Source of the DNA: Dehalococcoidia bacterium
GTDB taxonomy: Bacteria; Chloroflexota; Dehalococcoidia; Tepidiformales; Tepidiformaceae
Assembly (NCBI GenBank): GCA_020853755.1
Contig: JADYYG010000003.1
Coordinates: 1-64,000, forward strand
Direction: 5' to 3'
DNA length: 64,000 bases
The notes beneath the pieces were generated by a model, which worked only from the letters and a program-made list of their open reading frames with translations, made no database searches and was not told the origin of the DNA. The position numbers were made by a program, and so were the translations under genes. The stretch's first letter is position 1; the number at the start of each line of letters is the position of its first letter. Below are positions 27,376 through 37,876 of this stretch, one piece after another.

Positions 27376-28668
27376 ATGACTAACCGGTACTACCTCTGGA
27401 CTGTCGGCTGCCAGATGAACAAGGCAGACAGCGAGAAACTCGCCGCCGGGTTCGAGCGCATGGGCCTGAAGGCCACCGACCGGATTGAGCGCGCTGACAT
27501 CGTCGTGCTCAACACCTGCAGCGTCCGCCAGCACGCCGAAGACCGCGCCTACAGCAAGCTTGGACGTATCCGCGACCTGAAGCGGACCAAACCGGACATG
27601 AAGGTCGTCGTGATGGGCTGCATGGTGGGCCTGAAGACCGACGATCTTGAGAAGCGCTTTCCCCAGGTCGATGTGTTCGCGCGGCCCCAGCAGTTCGCGC
27701 CCATCATCGAGCTCATCGACGGCCCGGCCGAAGACCTCGGCGGGGAGTTCTGGCCGACGACCTATGCCATTCCCGAAGGTCCCACGGCGTACGTGCCTGT
27801 GGTCCACGGCTGCAACAAGTTCTGCACGTACTGCATCGTGCCCTACCGCCGCGGGCGCGAAAAAAGCCGCGCGATGGACGAAATCGTGCGCGAAGTGGCC
27901 TACCTGACTGCACAGGGCGTCCGTGAGGTCACACTGCTCGGGCAGACGGTCGAAGCGTATGGCCACGATCTCGCGGAGCAGCCGGACCTCGGCGACCTCA
28001 TGCGTGAGCTTTCGGCGCTGGACCGGCTGGAGCGCATTCGCTTCCTCACCTCGTATCCGAAGGACATGACCCACCGCATCCTCTCAGCGGTGGCCGAGTT
28101 GCCAAAGGTCATGGAATGCTTCTCGCTGCCTGTGCAAGCCGGGAGCGACGCTGTCCTCGAATCGATGCGTCGCGGGTACACCCGGCAGGAGTTCGTCGAC
28201 AAGATCGCCGAAGTCCGCCGCCTCATGCCCGGCGCCGGGATTACGACGGACATCATTGTCGGCTACCCGGGCGAAACCGAGGCCGACTTCGAGGCGACCG
28301 TGGACCTGCTGGAGGAGTTGCGCTTCGACAAGGTCCACGTGGCCGCGTACTCGCCGCGGCCGGGCACCATCGCCTGGCGCAAAATGCCCGACGACGTGCC
28401 CGCGGATGTGAAGGCCGCTCGATTGCACAGGATCGAAGAGGTGGAAGCGCGCATCGCCGAGGAAATCAACCAGCACTACGTGGGGACGGTCCAAGAAATC
28501 CTCATCGAGGGTGTGCGGAAAGAGCAGCCGTTCGGGCGGACACGCACGGGCAAGCTCGTCCACCTCGACGCCCCGGCGCGCATCGGGTCACTCGTCGACG
28601 TCACGATTGGTCATGCCGGCGCGTTCTCGCTTCGTGGCGCGGTCGAGGATTCGCTGGCGCTGGTCTAA
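27376..28668 (+). CDS. miaB: tRNA-2-methylthio-N6-dimethylallyladenosine synthase MiaB
   Basis: Radical-SAM methylthiotransferase acting on i6A37 of tRNAs reading U-starting codons. The 430-residue protein has the N-terminal MTTase domain with its three cluster cysteines (WTVGCQMNKADSE, LNTCSVRQHAEDRA, GCMVGL), the radical-SAM motif HGCNKFCTYCIVPYRRGRE and a C-terminal TRAM domain (VEARIAEEINQHYVGTVQEIL to the end). It follows tRNA-Ser closely. The stop codon overlaps that of the minus-strand gene (CTAA). Confidence 0.95.
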   Translation: MTNRYYLWTVGCQMNKADSEKLAAGFERMGLKATDRIERADIVVLNTCSVRQHAEDRAYSKLGRIRDLKRTKPDMKVVVMGCMVGLKTDDLEKRFPQVDVFARPQQFAPIIELIDGPAEDLGGEFWPTTYAIPEGPTAYVPVVHGCNKFCTYCIVPYRRGREKSRAMDEIVREVAYLTAQGVREVTLLGQTVEAYGHDLAEQPDLGDLMRELSALDRLERIRFLTSYPKDMTHRILSAVAELPKVMECFSLPVQAGSDAVLESMRRGYTRQEFVDKIAEVRRLMPGAGITTDIIVGYPGETEADFEATVDLLEELRFDKVHVAAYSPRPGTIAWRKMPDDVPADVKAARLHRIEEVEARIAEEINQHYVGTVQEILIEGVRKEQPFGRTRTGKLVHLDAPARIGSLVDVTIGHAGAFSLRGAVEDSLALV

Positions 28669-29501
28669 TTCTCGCCCCAGTCGATGGTCACGTCGTTCGC
28701 GTCATGCGGGTTGACGCGGACGTTCAGTGTCGAGCCTTCTATCAGCAGATCCGCCAGTGATTCACGGACGAGCGACGCCACGCTGACGCGGTACGGGGGC
28801 TTCGAAGCGGGCCGCACCTCGAGTTCGAACTCCAAGAGCCGCTGACGGCCGGGCGTCGGTCCGCGGTCAGTCTTGCGGATGATGGTCGCCGTTTCCCGCT
28901 GGCCCGAGTCGTCTGCGCTGCGCGGCCCAACTCCTGCCGGCGCAGGCTCACTGGTTCCGGCAGAGGTCACGACCGGCTCGGCGGAGTGGACGAGCGTCCC
29001 GCCCTGGAAGATGGTGGCACGTCGGAGCGCCTCTTCGTCGATCGTGACGCCGCGTTCCTTCAGGTAGGCGCTCAGCCCTGCCGGGTCCGTTGGGACCTCG
29101 CCGGTTCGCATGCTTCGAAGGTCGAGCGTGACGGGCCGTCCTGTTGTCACGTGGGCTTTCGAGAGGTCAGTTTGGATGCCGAAGTCACGCAGCATCTCGC
29201 TGATTCCAGTAAGGTCGCCAGGGTTCGAAGACACGGTGGTCACGGATGCCATCAGCTTGCGCGTCTTTCGGATGATGAACTCGGTCAGCAGCGAACTCAG
29301 CAGGCCGCTCGCGATGAACGCCACGCCGGTGATGAGGAGGGTGGCGCGCAGGGTGTCGCTCGCGCAGCCGCTGCCGCTGCAGTTCGCCGTGTCGAACCGT
29401 CCGGTGACAGCGTCGTTCAGGCCGAGCCCAACCATGATCACGCCGGCCACGATGAAGAGGGCGCCCAGCCCGTGTCCGACCGACCGTCCCATGCCTATCA
29501 T
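28665..29501 (-). CDS. Hypothetical protein with two membrane helices and a cytosolic C-terminal domain
   Basis: A 278-residue protein. Hydrophobic segments at about 11-30 and 51-75 flank a short extracytoplasmic loop with two cysteines (CSGSGC). The remaining ~200 residues are soluble, including a Ser/Pro linker near 185-200 and a C-terminal beta-rich part (LLEFELEVRPASKPPYRVSV, GSTLNVRVNPHDANDVTIDW). The layout resembles uncharacterised SHOCT-less envelope proteins of Actinobacteria and Chloroflexota, but no function is recognised. ATG 29495 is an alternative start. Confidence 0.7.
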   Translation of the reverse strand: MIGMGRSVGHGLGALFIVAGVIMVGLGLNDAVTGRFDTANCSGSGCASDTLRATLLITGVAFIASGLLSSLLTEFIIRKTRKLMASVTTVSSNPGDLTGISEMLRDFGIQTDLSKAHVTTGRPVTLDLRSMRTGEVPTDPAGLSAYLKERGVTIDEEALRRATIFQGGTLVHSAEPVVTSAGTSEPAPAGVGPRSADDSGQRETATIIRKTDRGPTPGRQRLLEFELEVRPASKPPYRVSVASLVRESLADLLIEGSTLNVRVNPHDANDVTIDWGEN

Positions 29502-29618
29502 GCGTCCCCCGAGGTAGCCTGTTGTTTCGACAGCACAGGCATCGACATCTTACGCGGGCGGTACCTTTGGCCGGGAGTTCAGTACTATCTCGACACATTC
29601 GATTTTGTGAGGATTCAG

Positions 29619-30371
29619 ATGAAGTTCGAAGAGATCAAGAAGGTGGGCATCCTCGGCGGCGGCATCATGGGCGGCGGCATCGCCCAGACCTATGCGGTTG
29701 CCGGGTACGACGTCGTGGTTCGCGACATAAACCAGGAAGCAATTGATAAGACCCGGTACGCCGTCTTCGATGGCAAGTGGGGCATCAAACGGGGCGTGGA
29801 GCGTGGAAAGCTGGCGTTCGATGATGCGCTCGTCGCCATGAGCCGTGTCAGCTTCGGCGAACAACTCAGCGTCCTGGCTGACTGCGACATCGTTATCGAG
29901 GCCATCCCGGAGAAGCTCGAGCTGAAGCAGCAGGTCTTCGCCGAACTCGACGGCGTGGTGAAGCCAGGCGCCATCTTCGCCTCGAACACGTCCGGCTTCG
30001 TCATCGCCGAAGTTGGGCGGGACGTTTCCGCCGCGCGCAAGCCGTTGTTCGTCGGCATGCACTTCTCGAATCCGGTGACGACGATGCGGATGCTCGAGGT
30101 CATCTACACCCCGGAGACCTCCCAGGACACGATCGACGCCGCGGTGAAGCTCGGCGAGGCCGGCGGCAAGGCTGTCTCCATGGTGAAGGACGCGCCGGGC
30201 ACGTACGGCTTCCTCCTGAACCGCATCTTCGGCGCCGCCTACCGCGAAGCGAAGGCCATCGTCGACGCAGGCATCGCGACGCCCGAGGATGTCGATAAGG
30301 CGATGATCACGGGCCGCAACTGGCCGTCGGCGTTCTTCGGCTCCCGGGGCGGCATCGGCAAGGAGTGGTAG
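29619..30371 (+). CDS. 3-hydroxyacyl-CoA dehydrogenase, short form
   Basis: NAD-dependent oxidation of 3-hydroxyacyl-CoA in beta-oxidation or the reverse in synthesis. The Rossmann motif VGILGGGIMGGGIAQ is at residues 8-22; CDIVIEAIPEKLELKQ, SNTSGFVIAEVG, the catalytic His in GMHFSNPV and the Asn in FLLNRIFG are present. The protein is 250 residues; the usual bacterial form is about 280, so the C-terminal helical domain is shortened and ends GRNWPSAFFGSRGGIGKEW rather than with the usual MGPFEL segment. The ATG at 29619 has GAGG upstream; the open frame back to 28986 is antisense to the membrane gene. Confidence 0.9.
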   Translation: MKFEEIKKVGILGGGIMGGGIAQTYAVAGYDVVVRDINQEAIDKTRYAVFDGKWGIKRGVERGKLAFDDALVAMSRVSFGEQLSVLADCDIVIEAIPEKLELKQQVFAELDGVVKPGAIFASNTSGFVIAEVGRDVSAARKPLFVGMHFSNPVTTMRMLEVIYTPETSQDTIDAAVKLGEAGGKAVSMVKDAPGTYGFLLNRIFGAAYREAKAIVDAGIATPEDVDKAMITGRNWPSAFFGSRGGIGKEW

Positions 30372-30384
30372 GGGGCAACGGGAA

Positions 30385-30412
30385 AGGCCGCCACTCGCAT
30401 GAGTGACGGCCT
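30385..30412 (-). terminator. Terminator cassette, copy 1, after the cohesin operon
   Basis: On the minus strand the stem AGGCCG-T-CACTC pairs with GAGTG-G-CGGCCT across ATGC, followed by TTCCCGTTGCCCCC. The same structure and identical right flank occur at 37762-37788 after tRNA-Ala. It sits 27 bases after the stop of the last cohesin-like gene. Confidence 0.75.
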
Positions 30413-30438
30413 GCCCTGGTCCGGCCGGATCGCTGCGC

Positions 30439-31797
30439 TCAGTTCTTTGCGCTGAGCCAGATGATGTCGCCGCTCTTCAGGGTCTTGAGGTCGTTGAGGT
30501 AGCCCGGCAGGCCCGGCCCGTACCGCCGCCAGCGGCCAGCCTCGGCGTCCCAGACATAAATCACTTCGATTGCGGCAGGGTTCGAAGCCGCGATGGCTGC
30601 CGAGGGCGCCATTTCCTCGCCGCCCCAGGTCAGCAGGTTCCAACCCGGGCTGTGCGGCATGACCGGGACGTCGGCAGCGTTCGTGCCCGCGGGCTGCGTG
30701 GGCGTTGGCGTGGCCGGCGCGCTCACGGGAGTGGCCGAAGGCGCGGCCGCGGTGACGGTGACCCAGCCGGGCGTGAAGTTCGCGGGCTGGGTCACCCCAT
30801 TCGCACCGAGGACCTGGTTCGGGTTGCCCTCGATCTGGAGGACGGACGAGCCAGCAGCGACCGCGTTCCATTCGACCACGAAGAGCGGGCAGTAAGCCGC
30901 GCAGCTGTCGAAGCGGAGGCCGCTGACGCGCACCTTCCCGGCGGCGTTGTCGATGGCCGGCTGAGGCGCGAGGCTCCAGCCGTTGCCTGCCGTCACGCGC
31001 TCCACCGTGGCGACGGCCGGGTCGAAGCGAAGGGTCAGGTCGAAGCTGGCGGGCGAGGGCGTGTTCGTGCCCAGGCTGACGCCGGCCGTGGTCAGGAAGC
31101 TGGCTCCCGCGACGGCCCCACCGCTACCCGCGAGCACCGCTGCCGGGGCGCCGGGTGCGGGCGTCACCGGTGCGGGGGGAGTAGCGGTGGGGCTGGCCGT
31201 CGGGCTTGGAGTGGCCGTCGCGCTGGGCGAAGGCGGCGCCGTCGGTGTCGAAGACGGAGGATTCGTCGGCGTTGCTGTGGGCGTGGCCGGGGCCGTCACC
31301 GTGACGGAACCCGCGTTGAAGGTGGCCGGAATGTACTGGCCCATGCCCGCGAGCGATTCGTTCGCGTTGCCGCCGAGGGTGAGCGCGCTGGTCCCCGCAG
31401 CGAGGCCGTTCCAGGTCACCTTGAACACCGGGCAGGTCGTCGCGCAGGTGTCGAAGCGGACCGCGATGACCTGCACCGTCCCCACGTCGTTCTTGATGCG
31501 TGGCGCCGGCATCAGCGACCACCCGGCGGCTGCTTCGACGCTGGCGACCGAAACGATGGCCGGGTCGAACTGCAGGGTGATGTCGTACGCGTTGAGGTGC
31601 GCGTCTTCCGCCGAGCGCGTGACCGAGGCCGTGCTGACCGCCGAGTTGCCCGCGACCATGCTGGCTGACCCGGCCGAAATGCTCGTCCCGGCGACGACGG
31701 CGGAAGTGCCGAGGACGCCCGCGAACAGCGCGCTCACCGCGGCAAGCTGGACCACCAGCAGTTTCGAGAGAAGCCCGCGTTTCCGTTTCGGCTCCAT
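30439..31797 (-). CDS. Secreted protein with two cohesin-like domains and Thr/Pro linkers
   Basis: A 452-residue exported protein. Residues ~11-35 form a signal/anchor segment after a basic N-terminus. Two cohesin-like beta-sandwiches follow (~36-165 and ~225-355), each with YDITLQFDP- or FDLTLRFDP-type strands and a conserved disulfide-like motif C-x3-C-P (RFDTCATTCPVF, RFDSCAAYCPLF). They are separated by a Thr/Pro/Ser linker (~168-220) likely O-glycosylated. The C-terminal ~75 residues (SPGWNLLTWGGEEM, VIYVWDAEAGRWRRYGPGLP, GDIIWLSAKN) form a separate module I have seen described only as uncharacterised. It is the last gene of the surface operon. Binding partner inferred: the dockerin protein at 33897-37211. 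Confidence 0.82.
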   Translation of the reverse strand: MEPKRKRGLLSKLLVVQLAAVSALFAGVLGTSAVVAGTSISAGSASMVAGNSAVSTASVTRSAEDAHLNAYDITLQFDPAIVSVASVEAAAGWSLMPAPRIKNDVGTVQVIAVRFDTCATTCPVFKVTWNGLAAGTSALTLGGNANESLAGMGQYIPATFNAGSVTVTAPATPTATPTNPPSSTPTAPPSPSATATPSPTASPTATPPAPVTPAPGAPAAVLAGSGGAVAGASFLTTAGVSLGTNTPSPASFDLTLRFDPAVATVERVTAGNGWSLAPQPAIDNAAGKVRVSGLRFDSCAAYCPLFVVEWNAVAAGSSVLQIEGNPNQVLGANGVTQPANFTPGWVTVTAAAPSATPVSAPATPTPTQPAGTNAADVPVMPHSPGWNLLTWGGEEMAPSAAIAASNPAAIEVIYVWDAEAGRWRRYGPGLPGYLNDLKTLKSGDIIWLSAKN

Positions 31798-31956
31798 GAC
31801 ACCCTCCTCGTCCGAGGCTGCGGTGTCTCCGCTCCCCGGCGCCGTGGTTATCGGTGCGCGCGAAAAGCGGCTGGAGTGTCAGGCTGGTGTACGAATCAGG
31901 AGAATCCGGTGCCGGGAGAGCCGCTCGCTCCCCCGGCCGGAACTGGCGCCAATGGC

Positions 31957-32985
31957 CTAGCGATCGCCGCCGAAGACGGAGCCGAGTACGCCCTGGAGCA
32001 GTTGCTCGCCGAGGTCCCGGACGAGCTGGCCGCTGCCGGGGATGCCGTCATCGGCGACGTGCGGCAGGTACAGCTTGTAGATCCGCGGGCCACCCGGGAT
32101 CGGGGTTGCTGTGGCCGTGCCTGTCGCTGTCGGCGACGACGTTGACTGGGGTGTGGTGGTGCCGGTGGCGGTGCCCTGCGGCGTTTGCGTACCCGTGGCC
32201 GTTCCAGTCGCGGTGTTGGTAGGCGTGCCCGCCGCGGTGGTGCTGGTGGGTGTGCTGGTCCCGGGAGTGACCGGGGTGTTGGTTGCGGTGGGGCCGATCG
32301 GCGTGTTGGTTGCCGTTGGGGTGACCGGGGTGTTGGTCGCGGTGGGGCCCATCGGCGTGTTCGTCGCGGTCGGGTTGACCGGGGTGTTGGTTGGGGGGAC
32401 GGAGGTGTTAGTTGGTGCGACCGGGGTGTGGGTCGGCGTGTTCGTTGGTGGGCCGCTCACCGTCACGGTGCCTCCGGTGTAGGTGTACGTCATCGGTATC
32501 CCGGCACTGATGAGCACGTTCGGCGGTGTCGAAAGATCGGTAATCGGCGATGCGCCGACTCCCACGCCCAGCCAGGTGATAGTGAACAGGGTGCAGACAC
32601 TCGGGCAGGTTGGGTCCTCTGCTGCACCTTTGAACCAGAGCCCCCGAACGGTAACCGTGCCGCCGGCGTTGTTGATCGTCGGAGCGGATGGGAACTGGGC
32701 GAAGAGGCCCGAGAAGGCAATGCTTTGAACGTTGACTTTCGTCTGGTCGAAGCCGAGCTTCACTTCGAACGTATCGATGAATCCGCTGTCGGCGGGATCG
32801 ATGGTCACCCTTACGTTGGTGGTGGTTGTTGAATTGACTCCGGCGATGGTGCCGCTGGACGTCGTCATGTTCGTGAGCCCCTGCGCCCCGGCGCCGAGGA
32901 CAAGTGTCATCAGGATGAGGGAGACACCCGTGAGCGTGGCCAGCAGTGTCGCGAGGGACACGCCGCGCCGCTGTCGTTGATTCAT
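31957..32985 (-). CDS. Secreted protein with one cohesin-like domain and a TATNTP repeat stalk
   Basis: A 342-residue exported protein. It has a basic N-terminus and hydrophobic signal segment (~10-34), one cohesin-like domain (~38-175) with FEVKLGFDQTKVNV and the C-x3-C motif (DPTCPSVCTLF), and a ~125-residue Thr/Pro/Ala/Asn stalk with repeats of TATNTPxxP. The C-terminus (RIYKLYLPHVADDG, then LVRDLGEQLLQGVLG) includes the short LYLP motif found at the ends of many Chloroflexota secreted proteins. Its ATG overlaps the stop of the preceding membrane-anchored cohesin gene (ATGA). Probably a surface adaptor. Confidence 0.82.
   Translation of the reverse strand: MNQRQRRGVSLATLLATLTGVSLILMTLVLGAGAQGLTNMTTSSGTIAGVNSTTTTNVRVTIDPADSGFIDTFEVKLGFDQTKVNVQSIAFSGLFAQFPSAPTINNAGGTVTVRGLWFKGAAEDPTCPSVCTLFTITWLGVGVGASPITDLSTPPNVLISAGIPMTYTYTGGTVTVSGPPTNTPTHTPVAPTNTSVPPTNTPVNPTATNTPMGPTATNTPVTPTATNTPIGPTATNTPVTPGTSTPTSTTAAGTPTNTATGTATGTQTPQGTATGTTTPQSTSSPTATGTATATPIPGGPRIYKLYLPHVADDGIPGSGQLVRDLGEQLLQGVLGSVFGGDR
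32265..32395. repeat. In-gene tandem repeat coding for the Thr/Pro stalk
   Basis: About four to five imperfect 30-base units coding TATNTPxxP on the minus strand. Such tracts can change length by slippage, which would alter stalk length. Confidence 0.75.
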
Positions 32986-33785
32986 CCTCTATCTCCGTTG
33001 CGTTTGAGGTAGCGCCGCCCTGCTGCCACGGCGGCTATGACTGCGATGATCCCGGCGCCGCCGACGGCGACGAGCGGCCAACTCGTTCCCTCGTCTCCAC
33101 TCTCGGCCTGTGGCGCTCTCTCCGCGCCGGCCAGGGCGGGTGAACCCGAAGCTCCGGAAGGCGTGTGGATGGGCGTCAGACGGATTGCGGTTCCTGGGGA
33201 CGCCGTTGGCGTTGGAATCTCCGTTGGATTGGGCGCTGGGGAAGCAGCCGGTGGCGGCGGCGTCGCTGCGTTTCCCGGCAGGGTTACCGGTTGGGGCAGT
33301 CCGTCATCCCGAGCGAGCAATGCCGCGCTAATCCTCAGGTGTGGGTCGGCGGGCTTGAGCGCCTTCAGGTCGAAGGAGATAAGCGGTCCGCTGCCCGTGG
33401 CCGCCGGTTTAGGCGCCACCTGGGTGTATGTCACTCGCACCGTTCCCTTTGCGTTGTCGACGACGTTGAAGACGACGAACCCCGGGTCGACGAACGGGAG
33501 GATTTTCACCTGGACCCCGTCTCTCGAAGGGTCCGCGTCGAGTACCGCCGCGACTGACGGGTCAAAGGTCAACTCCATGTCCACACCGAATAGGCGCTCT
33601 GCGCCGGAGATAGCGACCGTGTAGGCCGCTTGCTCTCCGTCGCGAAGCGGCGCCGGTGAAGGAGTGATCGTGAGCGAGGCTGCCGGGTCTTCCGCTCGAA
33701 CCGCCGTCGGCGAACCGGGCGAAGCAGGCCAGGCGACGACCAGCAAGGCAAGGAGCACGGCGCCCAGGTGGGTCAGACGGGGCAA
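32982..33785 (-). CDS. Membrane-anchored cohesin-like protein
   Basis: A 267-residue protein with a cleavable signal peptide (~1-30, ending SPTAVRAEDPAA), one cohesin-like domain (~33-165; YTVAISGAERLFGVDMELTFD, VVFNVVDNAKGTVRVTYTQ, GPLISFDLKAL), a Pro/Thr/Ala linker (~175-225) and a C-terminal membrane helix (~238-258) followed by RRYLKRNGDRG. The last part is the usual design for an anchored surface receptor. Unlike the two following genes it lacks the C-x3-C motif. The next gene begins in its stop codon. It may tether the dockerin protein to the cell. Confidence 0.85.
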   Translation of the reverse strand: MPRLTHLGAVLLALLVVAWPASPGSPTAVRAEDPAASLTITPSPAPLRDGEQAAYTVAISGAERLFGVDMELTFDPSVAAVLDADPSRDGVQVKILPFVDPGFVVFNVVDNAKGTVRVTYTQVAPKPAATGSGPLISFDLKALKPADPHLRISAALLARDDGLPQPVTLPGNAATPPPPAASPAPNPTEIPTPTASPGTAIRLTPIHTPSGASGSPALAGAERAPQAESGDEGTSWPLVAVGGAGIIAVIAAVAAGRRYLKRNGDRG

Positions 33786-33812
33786 ATGCGCCTCCGGGTG
33801 GCTTGGATACCG

Positions 33813-33846
33813 CCTGTGGCCCGGGCGGTTGAGCCCGGGCCACAGG
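33813..33846. promoter_or_regulatory. 14-bp perfect hairpin between the dockerin and cohesin genes
   Basis: CCTGTGGCCCGGGC / GCCCGGGCCACAGG with a 6-base loop, in the 111-base gap of the minus-strand operon. No T-tract follows on the minus strand, so attenuation or mRNA stabilisation is as likely as full termination. Confidence 0.65.
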
Positions 33847-33896
33847 GGTTGGTGACGACGTTGGTGTTCGCTCCGGTCAGGAGCGCTGGCGCTGGC

Positions 33897-36800
33897 CTAC
33901 GGCCAGGGGTTGGCGACGCTGGTCTTCAGGTAGTTCGAAGCCGTCAGCGAGAGATCAAGGATGTTCACGACGTTGTCGCCGTTGATATCCGGAGTGGTGT
34001 TGGCCACCGCCGGTGAATACGTTGGGCCGTTCTGGAGGTAGCGCGCAGCAATGAACGAGAGATCGAGAATGTCGATCACCTGGTCCATGTTGGCGTCGCC
34101 GCCGATGAGGGTGACGGTGCCGGCCGCGTTCGACCCGGCGTTCACCGTGATCGACTTCGTCGCCAGCAGGTAGCCCAGCATCCGGCCGCGGATCGTGTGC
34201 GGTCCGGCGGTGATGCCGGTGTTCGCCGTGAACGCGCCTGCGCTGTCGGTCAGGACCGCCGGGCTGCCGTTGGCGGGGAACGCCAGGGCGTCGAATTCGG
34301 CCGTGGCGCCGCTGTGGTTCGTGCGGCCCTGCAGGAGGATGGTCCCGGTGACGGTGAACCCGGTCGCGGTGACAGTGATGCTGTCGTTCGTGATCGAGTT
34401 CGGGCCGATCGGGAAGCCCTGGTTGTTGGAGTACAGCGTGCCTGCCGGGTTAATCGTCAGGTTCGCGGTGCCGCCCGCGACCACGTTGAAGGTCACCTTC
34501 GCGATGACAGGGGCTGCGCCGGTCACGGGCAAGTTCGGGTCCTGACGGGTGTAGGCGAACGTCACCACGCCCGGACTCGAGCTGTACGGCCCGATGTAGG
34601 CGGGGGTGAAGTCAGGCCCGACCGCTACGCCCGCCAGCGACAGCTGGCCGGTATAGGAGAGGCTGGCCTGGAACCCGTAGAGGCCGTCCGCGTTGTTGGC
34701 CACGATGTCGACGGTGATGGTGTCGCCGACGTTTGCCGTGGGCGGAGCCACCACCGAGATATCGCCGCAGCCGACGGCTGGCTGGAAGCCCACCACGGGC
34801 GAGGTGTCAGTCCCCGAGCAGAGGTTCGGCTCGAAGACGATGTTCTGCTCAGCCGGGCCGTAAATCGAGTCGATCGGGCCGGCCGGGGGAGTGTCAGAGC
34901 CGCTAAAAGCGAGGGGGAACGGGGTTGGATAATCGGGTTCGCTCGATATGGCGGAATTGACCGTTGGGTTGATGACGCCCCACCAGTTGTGGGCGAAGTT
35001 CTTCAGGTTCGCGCCATCAGCCGGGAGTGGTGGAGCGCCAGTTTGGCGGTCGTCGACAGCGCCGTACCAGTTGCCGCTCAGGTCGTTCTCGATGAACTGG
35101 GAGTTCAGCGCCTGCTGCAGCGGTGAGTTGGTTCCGCCCGAGGCATCCAGGAAGACGATGCCGAGCGTCCAGTTGTTGGTGATGAAGTTGTTCTTGACGA
35201 TCGTGTTGTCGGTCTGGTTGCGGAGGACGAGACCGGTACGGTTGAAATCGATGATGTTGTTGTGGATGTTATTGCCGTTGCTGTTGTTGATGTCCACGCC
35301 GGTGCGGTTGCCCGTCAGCTTGGAGTTGCGCAGCTCAACGGTGTTGCCCTGGCTCTGGATGGCGACGCCTGCGGAGTTGAGGGCGTTGCCAAATACGTCC
35401 CAGGTTGCAGGTGCGTTGCCGTCACGCGTGATGGTGAAGCCATCGACGAGGACGTTCGCGGCGCTAATGCGGAGCGTCGCAGTGGCAGGGTTCGTCAGCT
35501 GGTCGACACCGCTGATGATGGCGCTGTCGATGCCCGCGCCGTACATGCGGACGCCGGCCTTGTTGACGTTCACGTCTTCGTGGTAGGTGCCGGGCAGGAC
35601 GTAGATCTTGCCGCCGATGACCACGCGGTCGACGGCCTGCTGGACGGTCTGCTTGGGGCTTTCCTTCGTGCCGGTGTTGAGCGCGCTGCCGCTCGGGCTC
35701 ACGTAGACGATGGAGAGCGTGTCAGGGTTGGTCCGCTGGTCTTCGATGAAGGCCTCGTGGTTCGCCGCCGACATCGCCGGGACGTCGGTATACGACGTCA
35801 GGGGCACAGTATCGAGGATGGCGATGTCGAAGATGTTCTGTTCCGCGCCAACGCCCCACGTGTTGTTCGTGAAGACGAGGTCGCCTTGCTCGAGCACCCA
35901 GCCCTTGGTGTGCGCCACGAAGTTGTTGGAGATCGTGCCGGTCACCGGGCCGTTGATGTAACCCGGCTGGCGGATGTCGTGGAAGCTGTTATTGGTGACC
36001 AGGAGCCCGTTGGCCGCCGCGCTGTTCACCATTCCGCGGCTTACCTCGGCCGAGCCGTGGATGTAATGGGCGAAGATCTCGTTGTTCTGGATCGTGATGT
36101 TCGGCGCGCCGACATAGATGATGCCCTGGTCGACGTGGTCGGTCTTTTCGATCCGGAGACCGTCAATGCTGGACCCAGTGGAACCCGCTTCGAACCTGAA
36201 AATCTGGGCGCCGCCGGAGACCTGGACGAGCGGGTTGCCCGAGCCAACGATGTCGATGGGCGTTGTGATCAACATGGTGGACGATTGGGTGTAGGTGCCG
36301 GCCGCCACGTTGACGGTGCCGCCACCGGCGCCGTTCACGGTGTTCACGCCCTTCGCAACCGTCTTGAAGGGAGAGCCGGCGGTGCCGTCGTTGAGGTCGT
36401 TGCCGGTCGTCGCATTGACGTAGCAGGTGGTGGTGCAGAGGATCGTCGGCTCGAAGTCGAAGGTCTGCTTGTTGCCTGCGCCAGTCTCCCAGACGAACTT
36501 GTCGATGTTCACCGTTTCGGCGGGACCGGGGTTTCCTACACGGATGCCGACATGAGGGTCACTGACGAGGATTTTGGCGGTGGGGTAGAGTGCCAGGATC
36601 TGGTTCCAGGTTTTCGTCGGGCCTGTTGGCCCCGCCGGGTCCGCGGTGTTGGGCCACGTGGCGCCGCTGTAGCGCCATGCGGCTGCGCCGCCCTGGAAGG
36701 CATCAAACGTCTCCCACGTGTTCAATTGTGCCACCGGCGGAACGTAGATAAGGCGCTGCTGCCAAGTGTTCGTACCATTGAAGTCCACGTTCATGACGAG

Positions 36801-37211
36801 GTACGACGGCGCTGACGCGTCATTCGTGCGCGCATCCCAGCTGAGCGCAGTGATGCTGGAAAGCAGCGTCCCGCTGAACTGATACGTGGCGAGGTTCGTC
36901 CGGCCCGTGAGGGCGGGAATGGTGATCTGAGCGCTGCCAAGGCCCAACGGGGCGCTTCCAGGCCCGGTCACGAAGTCCCCGAGGACTCCGGGCGTGTTGT
37001 CGAAGGTGTCGTTGGTGTCGTTATAGAACAGCCATCCGCCGCCGGCCGGCGCGGTGAGGTCAGCCACCTTGACGATCGTCGTTGAGTCGGCCCTGGTGTC
37101 TTCGCGGGAGAGCATGAGGCTCCCGCTAACGCCAAAGACGACGGCGATGAGGGCGGCGAAGAGCAACCAGCTCCTGCGGCGCCGGGACTTCCCGTGCAAT
37201 GCAAGCGTCAT
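33897..37211 (-). CDS. Large secreted beta-helix protein with cohesin-like domain and C-terminal type I dockerin
   Basis: An 1104-residue surface protein. The ATG at 37211 is followed by KSRRRR and a membrane/signal segment (~15-34); the frame is open for another 68 codons upstream but these carry no signal. Domains: N-terminal beta-sandwich (~45-265), right-handed parallel beta-helix (~275-780) starting YVNATTGNDLNDGTAGSPF and again IVYVSPSGSALNTGTKESP with many NN-x-I repeats, cohesin-like domain (~845-955), carboxypeptidase-regulatory-like domain (~958-1032) and a dockerin (1038-1095). The two dockerin loops are GDANMDQVIDILDLSFIA and PDINGDNVVNILDLSLTA, with Asp/Asn at calcium positions 1,3,5,9,12. 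No catalytic residues of a polysaccharide lyase are recognised. It heads the four-gene operon. Confidence 0.9.
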   Translation of the reverse strand: MTLALHGKSRRRRSWLLFAALIAVVFGVSGSLMLSREDTRADSTTIVKVADLTAPAGGGWLFYNDTNDTFDNTPGVLGDFVTGPGSAPLGLGSAQITIPALTGRTNLATYQFSGTLLSSITALSWDARTNDASAPSYLVMNVDFNGTNTWQQRLIYVPPVAQLNTWETFDAFQGGAAAWRYSGATWPNTADPAGPTGPTKTWNQILALYPTAKILVSDPHVGIRVGNPGPAETVNIDKFVWETGAGNKQTFDFEPTILCTTTCYVNATTGNDLNDGTAGSPFKTVAKGVNTVNGAGGGTVNVAAGTYTQSSTMLITTPIDIVGSGNPLVQVSGGAQIFRFEAGSTGSSIDGLRIEKTDHVDQGIIYVGAPNITIQNNEIFAHYIHGSAEVSRGMVNSAAANGLLVTNNSFHDIRQPGYINGPVTGTISNNFVAHTKGWVLEQGDLVFTNNTWGVGAEQNIFDIAILDTVPLTSYTDVPAMSAANHEAFIEDQRTNPDTLSIVYVSPSGSALNTGTKESPKQTVQQAVDRVVIGGKIYVLPGTYHEDVNVNKAGVRMYGAGIDSAIISGVDQLTNPATATLRISAANVLVDGFTITRDGNAPATWDVFGNALNSAGVAIQSQGNTVELRNSKLTGNRTGVDINNSNGNNIHNNIIDFNRTGLVLRNQTDNTIVKNNFITNNWTLGIVFLDASGGTNSPLQQALNSQFIENDLSGNWYGAVDDRQTGAPPLPADGANLKNFAHNWWGVINPTVNSAISSEPDYPTPFPLAFSGSDTPPAGPIDSIYGPAEQNIVFEPNLCSGTDTSPVVGFQPAVGCGDISVVAPPTANVGDTITVDIVANNADGLYGFQASLSYTGQLSLAGVAVGPDFTPAYIGPYSSSPGVVTFAYTRQDPNLPVTGAAPVIAKVTFNVVAGGTANLTINPAGTLYSNNQGFPIGPNSITNDSITVTATGFTVTGTILLQGRTNHSGATAEFDALAFPANGSPAVLTDSAGAFTANTGITAGPHTIRGRMLGYLLATKSITVNAGSNAAGTVTLIGGDANMDQVIDILDLSFIAARYLQNGPTYSPAVANTTPDINGDNVVNILDLSLTASNYLKTSVANPWP

Positions 37212-37761
37212 CTGCTTGTGTTCTCCAGGCAAAGGTGAGCCTCCCCATGGGGAGACGCGTTGCGAGGGCGCGCGCCGAGGCGGCACACCCGTGTCGTACG
37301 CGATGGGGACATCATCTCGTTGAGCGCGCCGCCGTAGCGGCAGTTTGCACCCGGCCACTCCTTCCCGGGTCGCTCGGAAGAAAATCAGGGCTTTCCCCAA
37401 TAGGCGGCTCTGCAATCGGGGATTCCATACTTGCCATGCGTCCGGCTCGAGAGAATCGGCACGGCAAGGGTGCGCTCTGGTCCGTCTCCTTGCGACTCTC
37501 CCTGGCGGGGGGCTACCCGCCGGGGAAGATTCCTTCCATAAAGGTGTCCTTACCCCCGGGTGGGGGTAGTGGCGCGTATGGTGACAGAGCGGTTAACGGC
37601 GAGTCAACAGTTCGTCACAAACTCGACATTTGTTGTCGCGATTGGCGTGCCACTGCGAAGCGAAGTGTAAGAAGGGTGTTGGTAAAGGGCCGCCCGGCCT
37701 GGTATCCGGGTCTCGCCCCGGGCCTCTGCGCGGCGCCGGTTCGAACGCGGGGGCAACGGGA
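37212..37761 (-). other. Long non-coding leader of the dockerin gene with several inverted repeats
   Basis: No gene is supported here; frames that stay open lack start signals or are low complexity. Inverted repeats: CTCCCC-ATGGGGAG-type 14-bp palindrome (37241-37254), GGCGGG-GGGCTA-CCCGCC (37504-37521), and TACCCCC-GGGT-GGGGGTA (37551-37568). A possible minus-strand -35 TTGACT lies near 37603-37608. This could be a structured 5' leader; I could not match it to a known riboswitch class. Confidence 0.4.
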
Positions 37762-37788
37762 AAGGCCGCCACGGGTGGTGACGGCCTT
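37762..37788 (-). terminator. Terminator cassette, copy 2, after tRNA-Ala
   Basis: Minus-strand stem AAGGCCG-T-CAC / GTG-G-CGGCCTT with loop CACCC, followed by TCCCGTTGCCCCC. The 24 plus-strand bases from 37749 are identical to those from 30371, while the stem top differs but stays paired, including the same internal mismatch. Confidence 0.75.
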
Positions 37789-37800
37789 CGGTGGGATTGC

Positions 37801-37876
37801 TGGTGGAGCTGAGGGGATTCGAACCCCTTACCTCAACACTGCCAGTGTTGCGCTCTCCCGATTGAGCTACAGCCCC
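37801..37876 (-). tRNA. tRNA-Ala (anticodon GGC)
   Basis: A 76-base tRNA with encoded CCA. Acceptor GGGGCTG pairs with CAGCTCC (one G-T), D arm GCTC/GAGC, anticodon stem CAACA/TGTTG with loop CTGGCAG (anticodon GGC), T stem GGGG/CCCC around TTCGAAT. Followed on the minus strand by the terminator cassette. Confidence 0.97.

Follow-up and report, generated by a model that had tools for sequence, protein, structure and literature searches.

Four adjacent genes for cohesin and dockerin proteins

The window, a stretch of 64,000 nucleotides, contains four adjacent minus-strand open reading frames (hereafter designated A, B, C, and D), as a first-pass annotation had claimed; its lower bound for the locus, 30385, lies 54 nt below the stop of D. 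All four products look exported, with export-type N-termini, in agreement with that annotation for B, C, and D. The dockerin gene A and the cohesin gene B are neighbors spaced by 111 nt, and the reading frames of C and B overlap by 4 nt. The features are as follows.

33897..37211, minus: gene A, 1104 aa, exported beta-helix protein with C-terminal Cohesin-X-Dockerin; GGAG upstream of ATG
34827..36446, minus: right-handed beta-helix region of A (DUF1565, Beta_helix, NosD), about residues 256-795
34371..34745, minus: cohesin domain of A; PF00963 40.1 bits, E 9.4e-10 (cut-off 24.1)
34104..34382, minus: X module of A, carboxypeptidase-regulatory-like, LQGR motif; class HMM 74.8 bits (seed member)
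33900..34103, minus: C-terminal dockerin of A, last residues ...NPWP; PF00404 28.5 bits and class alignment
34062..34097, minus: dockerin calcium loop 1, DANMDQVIDILD, from the sequence
33954..33989, minus: dockerin calcium loop 2, DINGDNVVNILD, from the sequence
33812..33847, minus: very stable GC hairpin between A and B, without T-run
32982..33785, minus: gene B, 267 aa, cohesin, Pro/Ser/Thr stalk, and C-terminal membrane helix
33249..33686, minus: cohesin domain of B; class HMM 61.2 bits
33012..33074, minus: C-terminal transmembrane segment of B, then basic residues; WPLVAVGGAGIIAVIAAVAAGRRYLKRNGDRG
31957..32985, minus: gene C, 342 aa, one Cys-loop cohesin relative and Thr/Pro stalk
32449..32892, minus: cohesin-like domain of C, a row of the query alignment
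30439..31797, minus: gene D, 452 aa, two Cys-loop cohesin relatives, Thr/Pro linkers, and unnamed C-terminal domain
31288..31704, minus: cohesin-like domain 1 of D; class HMM 36.4 bits
30745..31161, minus: cohesin-like domain 2 of D; class HMM 35.9 bits
30442..30660, minus: family-wide C-terminal domain of D (PGxNLxxW...YxPGLPxYLNxL...GxxYW)

In Pfam, the beta-helix region of A scored 42.3 bits with Beta_helix, 40.5 with NosD, and 32.4 with DUF1565. Its cohesin was missed by hmmscan with the full-length protein and recovered with the excised domain, and the X module matched PF13715 weakly (20 bits). The dockerin is of the two-repeat type previously proposed, with D or N at positions 1, 3, 5, 9, and 12 of both loops; its model has two F-hand helices, and the two repeats agree at 12 of 23 positions. 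Since both loops are complete and the X-dockerin cassette is conserved across the class, this dockerin is unlikely to be an isolated vestige.

B starts with TTG, preceded by GGAGG, and ends in the hydrophobic helix (mean hydropathy 2.37) that had been taken for a membrane anchor. The intergenic region between A and B (33790-33896) folds as RNA at -53.5 kcal/mol (z -4.9). The cohesins of C and D are divergent and contain a Cys-x3-Cys loop. To judge from the sequence, the loop in the dockerin-binding region appears shortened and bridged by two cysteines, so that C and D are possibly not dockerin receptors. The C-terminal domain of D has no relative in Pfam, NCBIfam, or PDB.

Identity of the cohesin-like and dockerin regions

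A cohesin HMM was built from 31 class sequences, with A as a seed and B, C, and D outside the seeds. The maximum score was 6.6 bits for reversed open reading frames and 9.7 bits for shuffled B, C, and D, and the real domains of B and D exceeded these controls, as did that of C (22.5 bits). Thus, the similarity of these regions to cohesins is far beyond chance. By Pfam, the excised B domain reached 24.3 bits with PF00963, D passed marginally with 24.5 bits summed over two stretches (cut-off 24.1), and C gave no match and stayed below the PF00963 cut-off. Accordingly, the predicted count of one, one, and two cohesins in B, C, and D stands by the class HMM for all three, and falls short by the Pfam cut-off for C. 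When the C/D type was compared with cohesins profile to profile, the probability was 97.4 (E 1e-11), and the dockerin of A exceeded the PF00404 cut-off of 22.9 in the genome scan.

Structural comparison pointed in the same direction. The Coh-X-Doc profile of A found CipA Coh9-X-Doc (3kcp, E 6.7e-13) as its best PDB match by sequence, and the model of A had another CipA structure (4fl4, E 1.1e-16) as its best fold match in PDB. An AlphaFold model of D computed from three sequences was poor (pLDDT 49.5); the PDB matches of the weak D model were almost all cohesins. Rows taken from the loci of the genome search were left out of the structure predictions. The non-cellulosomal cohesin-fold modules of Clostridium perfringens secreted glycosidases (2jh2, 2w1n) stood near the top of the fold matches for both A and D; those modules sit on glycoside hydrolases, unlike anything in this operon. 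Nothing was gained from PDB searches with B alone or with the C/D type, from a contig search with the X-Doc of A alone, or from the dockerin alignment as a query, which was too divergent. Collectively, the cohesin and dockerin assignments of the first-pass annotation are borne out by the Pfam cut-offs, HMM controls, profile-profile comparison, and PDB sequence and fold matches. That the cohesin-like regions are instead unrelated Ig-like stalks, the dockerin being a plain calcium-binding repeat and no docking taking place, could appeal to C lying under the Pfam cut-off and D barely over it. We give this view hardly any credence, as it is contradicted by the controls, by the profile-profile and PDB matches, and by the co-occurrence of cohesins and X-dockerins across genomes described below.

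Genome inventory and distribution among relatives

The set detected in the genome comprises five cohesins and one dockerin, all in this operon, in a recovered genome of 3.37 Mb that is 92.6% complete, so that about 7% may be missing. The single dockerin is on the beta-helix protein and not on an enzyme, and several dockerin-bearing enzymes were not found in the 3.37 Mb. Among the four proteins, Pfam detected neither a glycoside hydrolase nor a CBM family, and hence no cellulose-binding primary scaffoldin was found among these four. The operon had been called non-cellulosomal, and this set of five cohesins and one dockerin, with no enzyme, indeed excludes a cellulosome as far as the assembly reaches. 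Beta-helix folds include pectinesterases and lyases. On this account, A might be a lyase in a remnant or minimal polysaccharide-degrading cellulosome, in line with a weak Pectinesterase match (22.7 bits, under the cut-off of 27) and the CipA-like trimodule. This is very improbable in view of the lack of glycoside hydrolases and CBMs in the four proteins, the single dockerin in the genome, and the X-dockerins of class relatives, which sit on beta-helix and beta-propeller proteins.

The operon lies in a 9-kb cassette that is missing in two congeners between the same flanking genes and is therefore accessory.

28669..37800, no strand: accessory region with A-D, a 3-hydroxyacyl-CoA dehydrogenase-like ORF, and a 278-aa ORF; absent at the site in two congeners
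37801..37876, minus: tRNA-Ala(ggc) flanking the cassette; its neighbor in the congeners is miaB

The near-empty site in genome G004 leans toward insertion rather than loss in the congeners. Site-specific integration at tRNA-Ala was considered and rejected, because the stretch from 27.0 to 37.8 kb lacks a direct repeat of the 3' end of the tRNA and an integrase was not seen.

A genome of another genus (G018, 85% complete) keeps gene A and one C-like gene; its dockerin loops are degenerate, and no B-type cohesin was found in its 85%. Among genomes of the class, 13 of the 14 with X-dockerin relatives had a cohesin, as against 75 of the 393 genomes as a whole (p 2e-9, without correction for kinship), and in the 14th, G018, a cohesin was found by a separate search. 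Some class genomes (G044) hold cohesins without a detected dockerin, and hence cohesins can have other partners. Two arrangements are found repeatedly in Chloroflexota, Proteobacteria, and Archaea: a single chain with both a cohesin and a dockerin, and a gene pair in which the dockerin gene precedes a cohesin gene, the latter often with a membrane anchor. Thus, an Anaerolineae locus (L093) encodes Coh-X-Doc and then a cohesin with a helix, both over the Pfam cut-offs, a Pelomonas locus (L107) has a dockerin gene and then a cohesin with a PEP-CTERM-like tail, and five further loci (L098, L120, L121, L122, L126) show the same gene order. For Dehalococcoidia, Chloroflexota, or Poribacteria, our search of the literature returned no relevant paper on dockerins.

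Predicted docking and its alternatives

The Archaeoglobus fulgidus genome has two cohesins and one dockerin. The dockerin of its ORF2375 binds the cohesin of the adjacent ORF2376 strongly and specifically (PMC9705933). The present operon shares a cohesin domain, a two-loop dockerin, and neighboring genes with that pair; it is likewise non-cellulosomal, with few cohesins and one dockerin, and the fold matches of the A model include the A. fulgidus cohesin 2xdh. It differs in having five cohesins, some of them in a Cys-loop subgroup, a cargo that combines a beta-helix with an X module, and a clear membrane anchor at a C-terminus, and in that docking is predicted here. A also has the module order of the C-terminus of Clostridium thermocellum CipA (Coh9-X-DocII), unlike which it carries one cohesin and a beta-helix in place of many enzyme-binding cohesins and CBM3, with no dockerin enzymes. 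In joining one dockerin to a single cohesin, A resembles a monovalent adaptor scaffoldin, and B, with its cohesin and C-terminal transmembrane helix, resembles a nonSLH-anchoring scaffoldin (PMC11557425), although neither has a surrounding cellulosome. In ANME archaea, dockerin and multiple cohesins share one chain, much as A joins a dockerin to its cohesin, in proteins thought to be extracellular and not tied to cellulose degradation; there, unlike here, S-layer domains and binding proteins of ABC transporters are among the cargo, and there are many dockerins per genome (PMC9012536).

On balance, we favor the view that the operon is a small, self-contained, non-cellulosomal docking system of the ORF2375/ORF2376 type that hangs a beta-helix protein on the membrane. 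B would be the receptor, its cohesin raised above the membrane on the stalk and C-terminal helix. A would be the cargo, whose C-terminal X-dockerin, once A is secreted, would take up calcium and dock on the cohesin of B, so that the beta-helix, which probably serves in glycan binding or adhesion, would face outwards together with a further cohesin. The latter could accept another dockerin and, because the dockerin of A is the only one found, A may form short chains, head to tail. C and D, as secreted stalked cohesin relatives, are more likely to cap the complex or to bind a different ligand at the surface. Docking of A on B is the best reading of the Pfam passes, CipA match, single-operon set, recurring gene pair, and genome co-occurrence; it is weakened by the identity of only about 16% between the cohesins of A and B, by G018 without a B-type cohesin, by the cohesin-only genomes, and by the 7% or so of the genome possibly missing.

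Self-polymerization of A, as the first-pass annotation envisaged, is possible, and is made more plausible than it was then by the finding that the five cohesins and the dockerin of the operon are the only ones of the genome. In such a homotypic fiber, the dockerin of A would bind the cohesin of the next A, giving a head-to-tail polymer anchored via B and capped by C and D. A carries a cohesin and the only detected dockerin beside just four other cohesins, the short linkers among Coh, X, and Doc make folding back within one chain look awkward, and the likeness of the dockerin repeats is compatible with dual binding. We nevertheless regard the fiber as rather unlikely, given that the same-chain cohesin and dockerin of CipA-type adaptors do not bind each other and that same-chain pairs are so common as to imply many such fibers, of which we know no report. 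Within a cellulosomal adaptor, the cohesin differs in specificity from the dockerin of its own chain, and co-occurrence on one chain therefore does not imply self-binding. Unlikely, too, is the combination of a closed surface fiber, with the dockerin of A on the cohesin of its own chain type and B as anchor, and a C/D subgroup with a new non-dockerin ligand. Alternatively, A might dock on B while the cohesins of A, C, and D catch dockerins of neighboring cells or a non-dockerin ligand in cell-cell or matrix contact. The excess of five cohesins over one dockerin, the class genomes with cohesins and no detected dockerin, and the Cys-loop altering the dockerin-side region of C and D speak for such contacts, as do the dockerin systems of ANME archaea, for which a role in interacting with bacteria has been proposed (PMC9012536). 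Against this adaptor role, which we hold to be distinctly unlikely, it counts that further dockerins could lie in the missing 7% of the genome.

The function of cohesins and dockerins outside cellulosomes has remained a question ever since the two were first seen beyond cellulolytic bacteria, and in many genomes both are too numerous to be disentangled. The present operon, a clean variant of already known docking systems and not a new kind, holds the whole detectable set within 7 kb and offers a small interaction matrix in a phylum in which, to our knowledge, surface anchoring is poorly known. If the dockerin of A binds the cohesin of A itself, the operon would encode a naturally occurring, calcium-switched protein polymer; with B as the sole partner of this dockerin, the operon would be a minimal plug-and-socket for surface display.

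Four genes and a CipA-like trimodule

The operon (30439-37211, minus strand) consists of four genes, designated A to D, with 111 nt between A and B, a 4-nt overlap of B with C, and 159 nt between C and D; the TTG start of B and the ATG of D each have a good ribosome-binding site ahead.

33897-37211, minus strand: A, 1104 aa, export-type N-terminus, beta-helix, C-terminal cohesin, X module and dockerin
32982-33785, minus strand: B, cohesin, Pro/Ser/Thr stalk, C-terminal hydrophobic helix then basic residues
31957-32985, minus strand: C, one cohesin-like domain, Thr/Pro stalk
30439-31797, minus strand: D, two cohesin-like domains (D1, D2), Thr/Pro stalk

The first-pass annotation had placed a cohesin and a dockerin on the chain of A, and both indeed exceeded the Pfam cut-offs (40.1 and 28.5 bits), the cohesin being visible to hmmscan once cut out and not in the full-length protein. 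Profile search revealed a right-handed beta-helix preceding these modules, with a region of ~220 aa lacking a family on its N-terminal side. The profile of the cohesin, X module and dockerin in series (Coh-X-Doc) had as its top PDB match 3kcp_A (E 6.7e-13), the Coh9-X-DocII trimodule of Clostridium thermocellum CipA. In the AlphaFold model of the last 304 residues (pLDDT 79, pTM 0.61), a sandwich of nine strands was accompanied by an X module and a pair of dockerin helices. The closest fold was 4fl4 (the same CipA trimodule; E 1.1e-16), with X-Doc and cohesin structures, among them A. fulgidus 2xdh, next in rank; structure prediction and profile search both gave the CipA arrangement. The B cohesin scored 24.3 bits against Pfam when cut out, and the hydrophobic helix and basic residues of B support the C-terminal membrane anchor noted on one of the proteins. 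In a published scheme (PMC11557425), the composition of A is that of a monovalent adaptor scaffoldin and that of B a nonSLH-anchoring scaffoldin.

Divergent cohesins of C and D

In Pfam, C was invisible and D only marginal. With a class HMM for cohesin, built from 31 class sequences with B, C and D left out, scores of 61.2 (B), 36.4 (D1), 35.9 (D2) and 22.5 bits (C) were obtained, above the best controls (6.6 on 5685 reversed ORFs; 9.7 on 3000 B/C/D shuffles), which upholds the earlier count of one, one and two cohesin-like domains. Profile-profile comparison of the C/D type with cohesins gave a probability of 97.4 (E 1e-11), and the low-confidence model of D (pLDDT 49.5) retrieved almost exclusively cohesins from the PDB (E 1.6e-3 and above). 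These searches point to cohesins rather than unrelated Ig-like folds; C and D are divergent cohesins.

Alignments A11 and A12 show that the LF/VFxxTW strand of the C/D domains is preceded by a short two-cysteine loop (CPSVC, CATTC, CAAYC), the corresponding loop of ordinary cohesins being longer. Because the neighbourhood of this loop contributes to dockerin binding in cellulosomal cohesins, the ligand of the C/D cohesins may differ. Capping is one possible role of C and D; binding of something else is another. C (31957-32100) and L025:2044-2841 share a C-terminal tail motif, Y[KR]xxxPxVAxDG, found nowhere else among the fetched loci.

D ends in a further domain, also seen in loci L029-L039.

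30442-30660, minus strand: C-terminal domain of D, ~75 aa, PGxNLxxWPG...VYxWD...W.RYxPGLPxYLNxL...GxAYWxIA

Full-length D matched 37 of the 38 family genomes, nearly always through this domain and mostly with several copies each, which lay 1-12 residues from the chain's C-terminus in the copies examined. It had no relative in Pfam, NCBIfam or the PDB, and may serve the family's secretome in surface sorting or anchoring.

A closed set in an accessory island

Across the genome assembly (3.37 Mb, completeness 92.6%), the cohesin profile hit five places at E <= 1, all within the operon; since these five are themselves rows of the profile, the information lies solely in its finding no others. The X-dockerin profile found A alone, plus one weak partial X-like match (E 0.009). 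Among the 38 family genomes, only one other, G018, has any cohesin: there, a relative of A (A'; 1069 aa, ~41% identity; beta-helix, cohesin, X, dockerin) with imperfect calcium loops (GDLNGDGSIGLND, DFNNSGSVNIND) is followed by a C-like gene carrying the tail motif of C, and no B-type gene was found.

28669-37800: variable spot holding A-D
37801-37876: tRNA-Ala(ggc)
27376-28668: miaB

In the congeners G001 and G004, the flanking order is the same (oppA-oppB-oppC-tRNA-Ala(ggc), then miaB and tRNA-Ser(gct)), and A-D and two further ORFs are absent between these flanks, as the synteny survey of relatives showed. DNA similarity ends at the tRNA end and the miaB end, and G004 has 0.1 kb at the spot and G001 0.9 kb that contain a different ORF, compared with ~9 kb in the window; G005 and G002 have other genes after the same tRNA. 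Neither an integrase nor a duplicated tRNA end was found at the island.

Relatives of the X-dockerin cassette (A4 alignment consensus, LQGR...MPGYL...LLGGDxNGDGxIDIxDL...NFGKTxSPWP) occur in the class at ~40% identity on beta-helix and beta-propeller proteins, including Dehalococcoides sp. JdFR-54 (L091, L092). The conserved [ST]PW(P) at their chain end (33900-33914 in A) recalls the Trp/Pro terminal contact stabilising the R. flavefaciens ScaA dockerin (PMC5864761). Across 393 class genomes, PF00963 cohesins were present in 13 of the 14 with such relatives versus 75/393 overall (p 2e-9, kinship ignored), and a cohesin is also present in G018, the remaining one of the 14. In 39 loci from named genomes, fetched with the dockerin module as sole query, cohesin and dockerin share a chain in 15 and a separate cohesin gene lies <=1.5 kb away in 8; in L093 (Anaerolineae) a Coh-X-Doc gene precedes a cohesin gene whose product has a helix at its C-terminus, the two scoring above Pfam cut-offs, and in L107 (Pelomonas) a dockerin gene precedes a cohesin with a PEP-CTERM-like tail. 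Therefore, the architecture that the first-pass annotation thought remarkable is recurrent.

A 2775-aa protein of G071 (L061:7604-15928, minus strand) is ordered coh-doc-coh-X-doc. Several cohesins of G044 (L069, L070), another class relative, are membrane-anchored; as no dockerin was detected there, the cohesins may have other ligands. In Poribacteria MAGs (L094-L118), the dockerin module recruited many proteins that end in a dockerin and frequently bear a cohesin as well; the collection of papers searched contained none on this.

Docking, hairpin and significance

A two-component plug and socket is the reading with the best support: A would use its X-dockerin to dock on B's cohesin, held at the membrane. 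The domains, complete calcium loops, anchor, neighbourhood and recurrence were observed; A-B binding, its calcium dependence, the topology and the cargo function are inferred. A. fulgidus provides the precedent, its ORF2375 dockerin binding the ORF2376 cohesin strongly and specifically (PMC9705933). A polymer, also possible, would require the cohesin of A to accept the dockerin of A. The short Coh-X-Doc linkers and the detection of no other dockerin favour it; CipA, in which a cohesin and a dockerin sharing a chain bind different partners, speaks against it.

33812-33847, minus strand: GC hairpin between A and B, perfect, very stable, without T-run

The 107-nt A-B region with this hairpin folds at -53.5 kcal/mol (z -4.9). 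In the cip-cel operon, RNA processing with stem-loops at gene ends sets subunit stoichiometry (PMC4423207); as a testable guess, the hairpin may likewise raise A over B as an RNA-processing or stabilising element. Alternatively, it may be a terminator splitting the operon, and an attenuator is a further candidate.

Non-cellulosomal cohesins and dockerins, chains bearing both, and anchored cohesins were known already (PMC9012536, which cites Peer et al. 2009; A. fulgidus). New are the closed set of five cohesins to one dockerin in a single accessory operon, the Cys-loop cohesin subgroup of C and D, and the unnamed, family-wide C-terminal domain on D. The main interest of the operon is that it makes the function of non-cellulosomal cohesin/dockerin systems directly testable.
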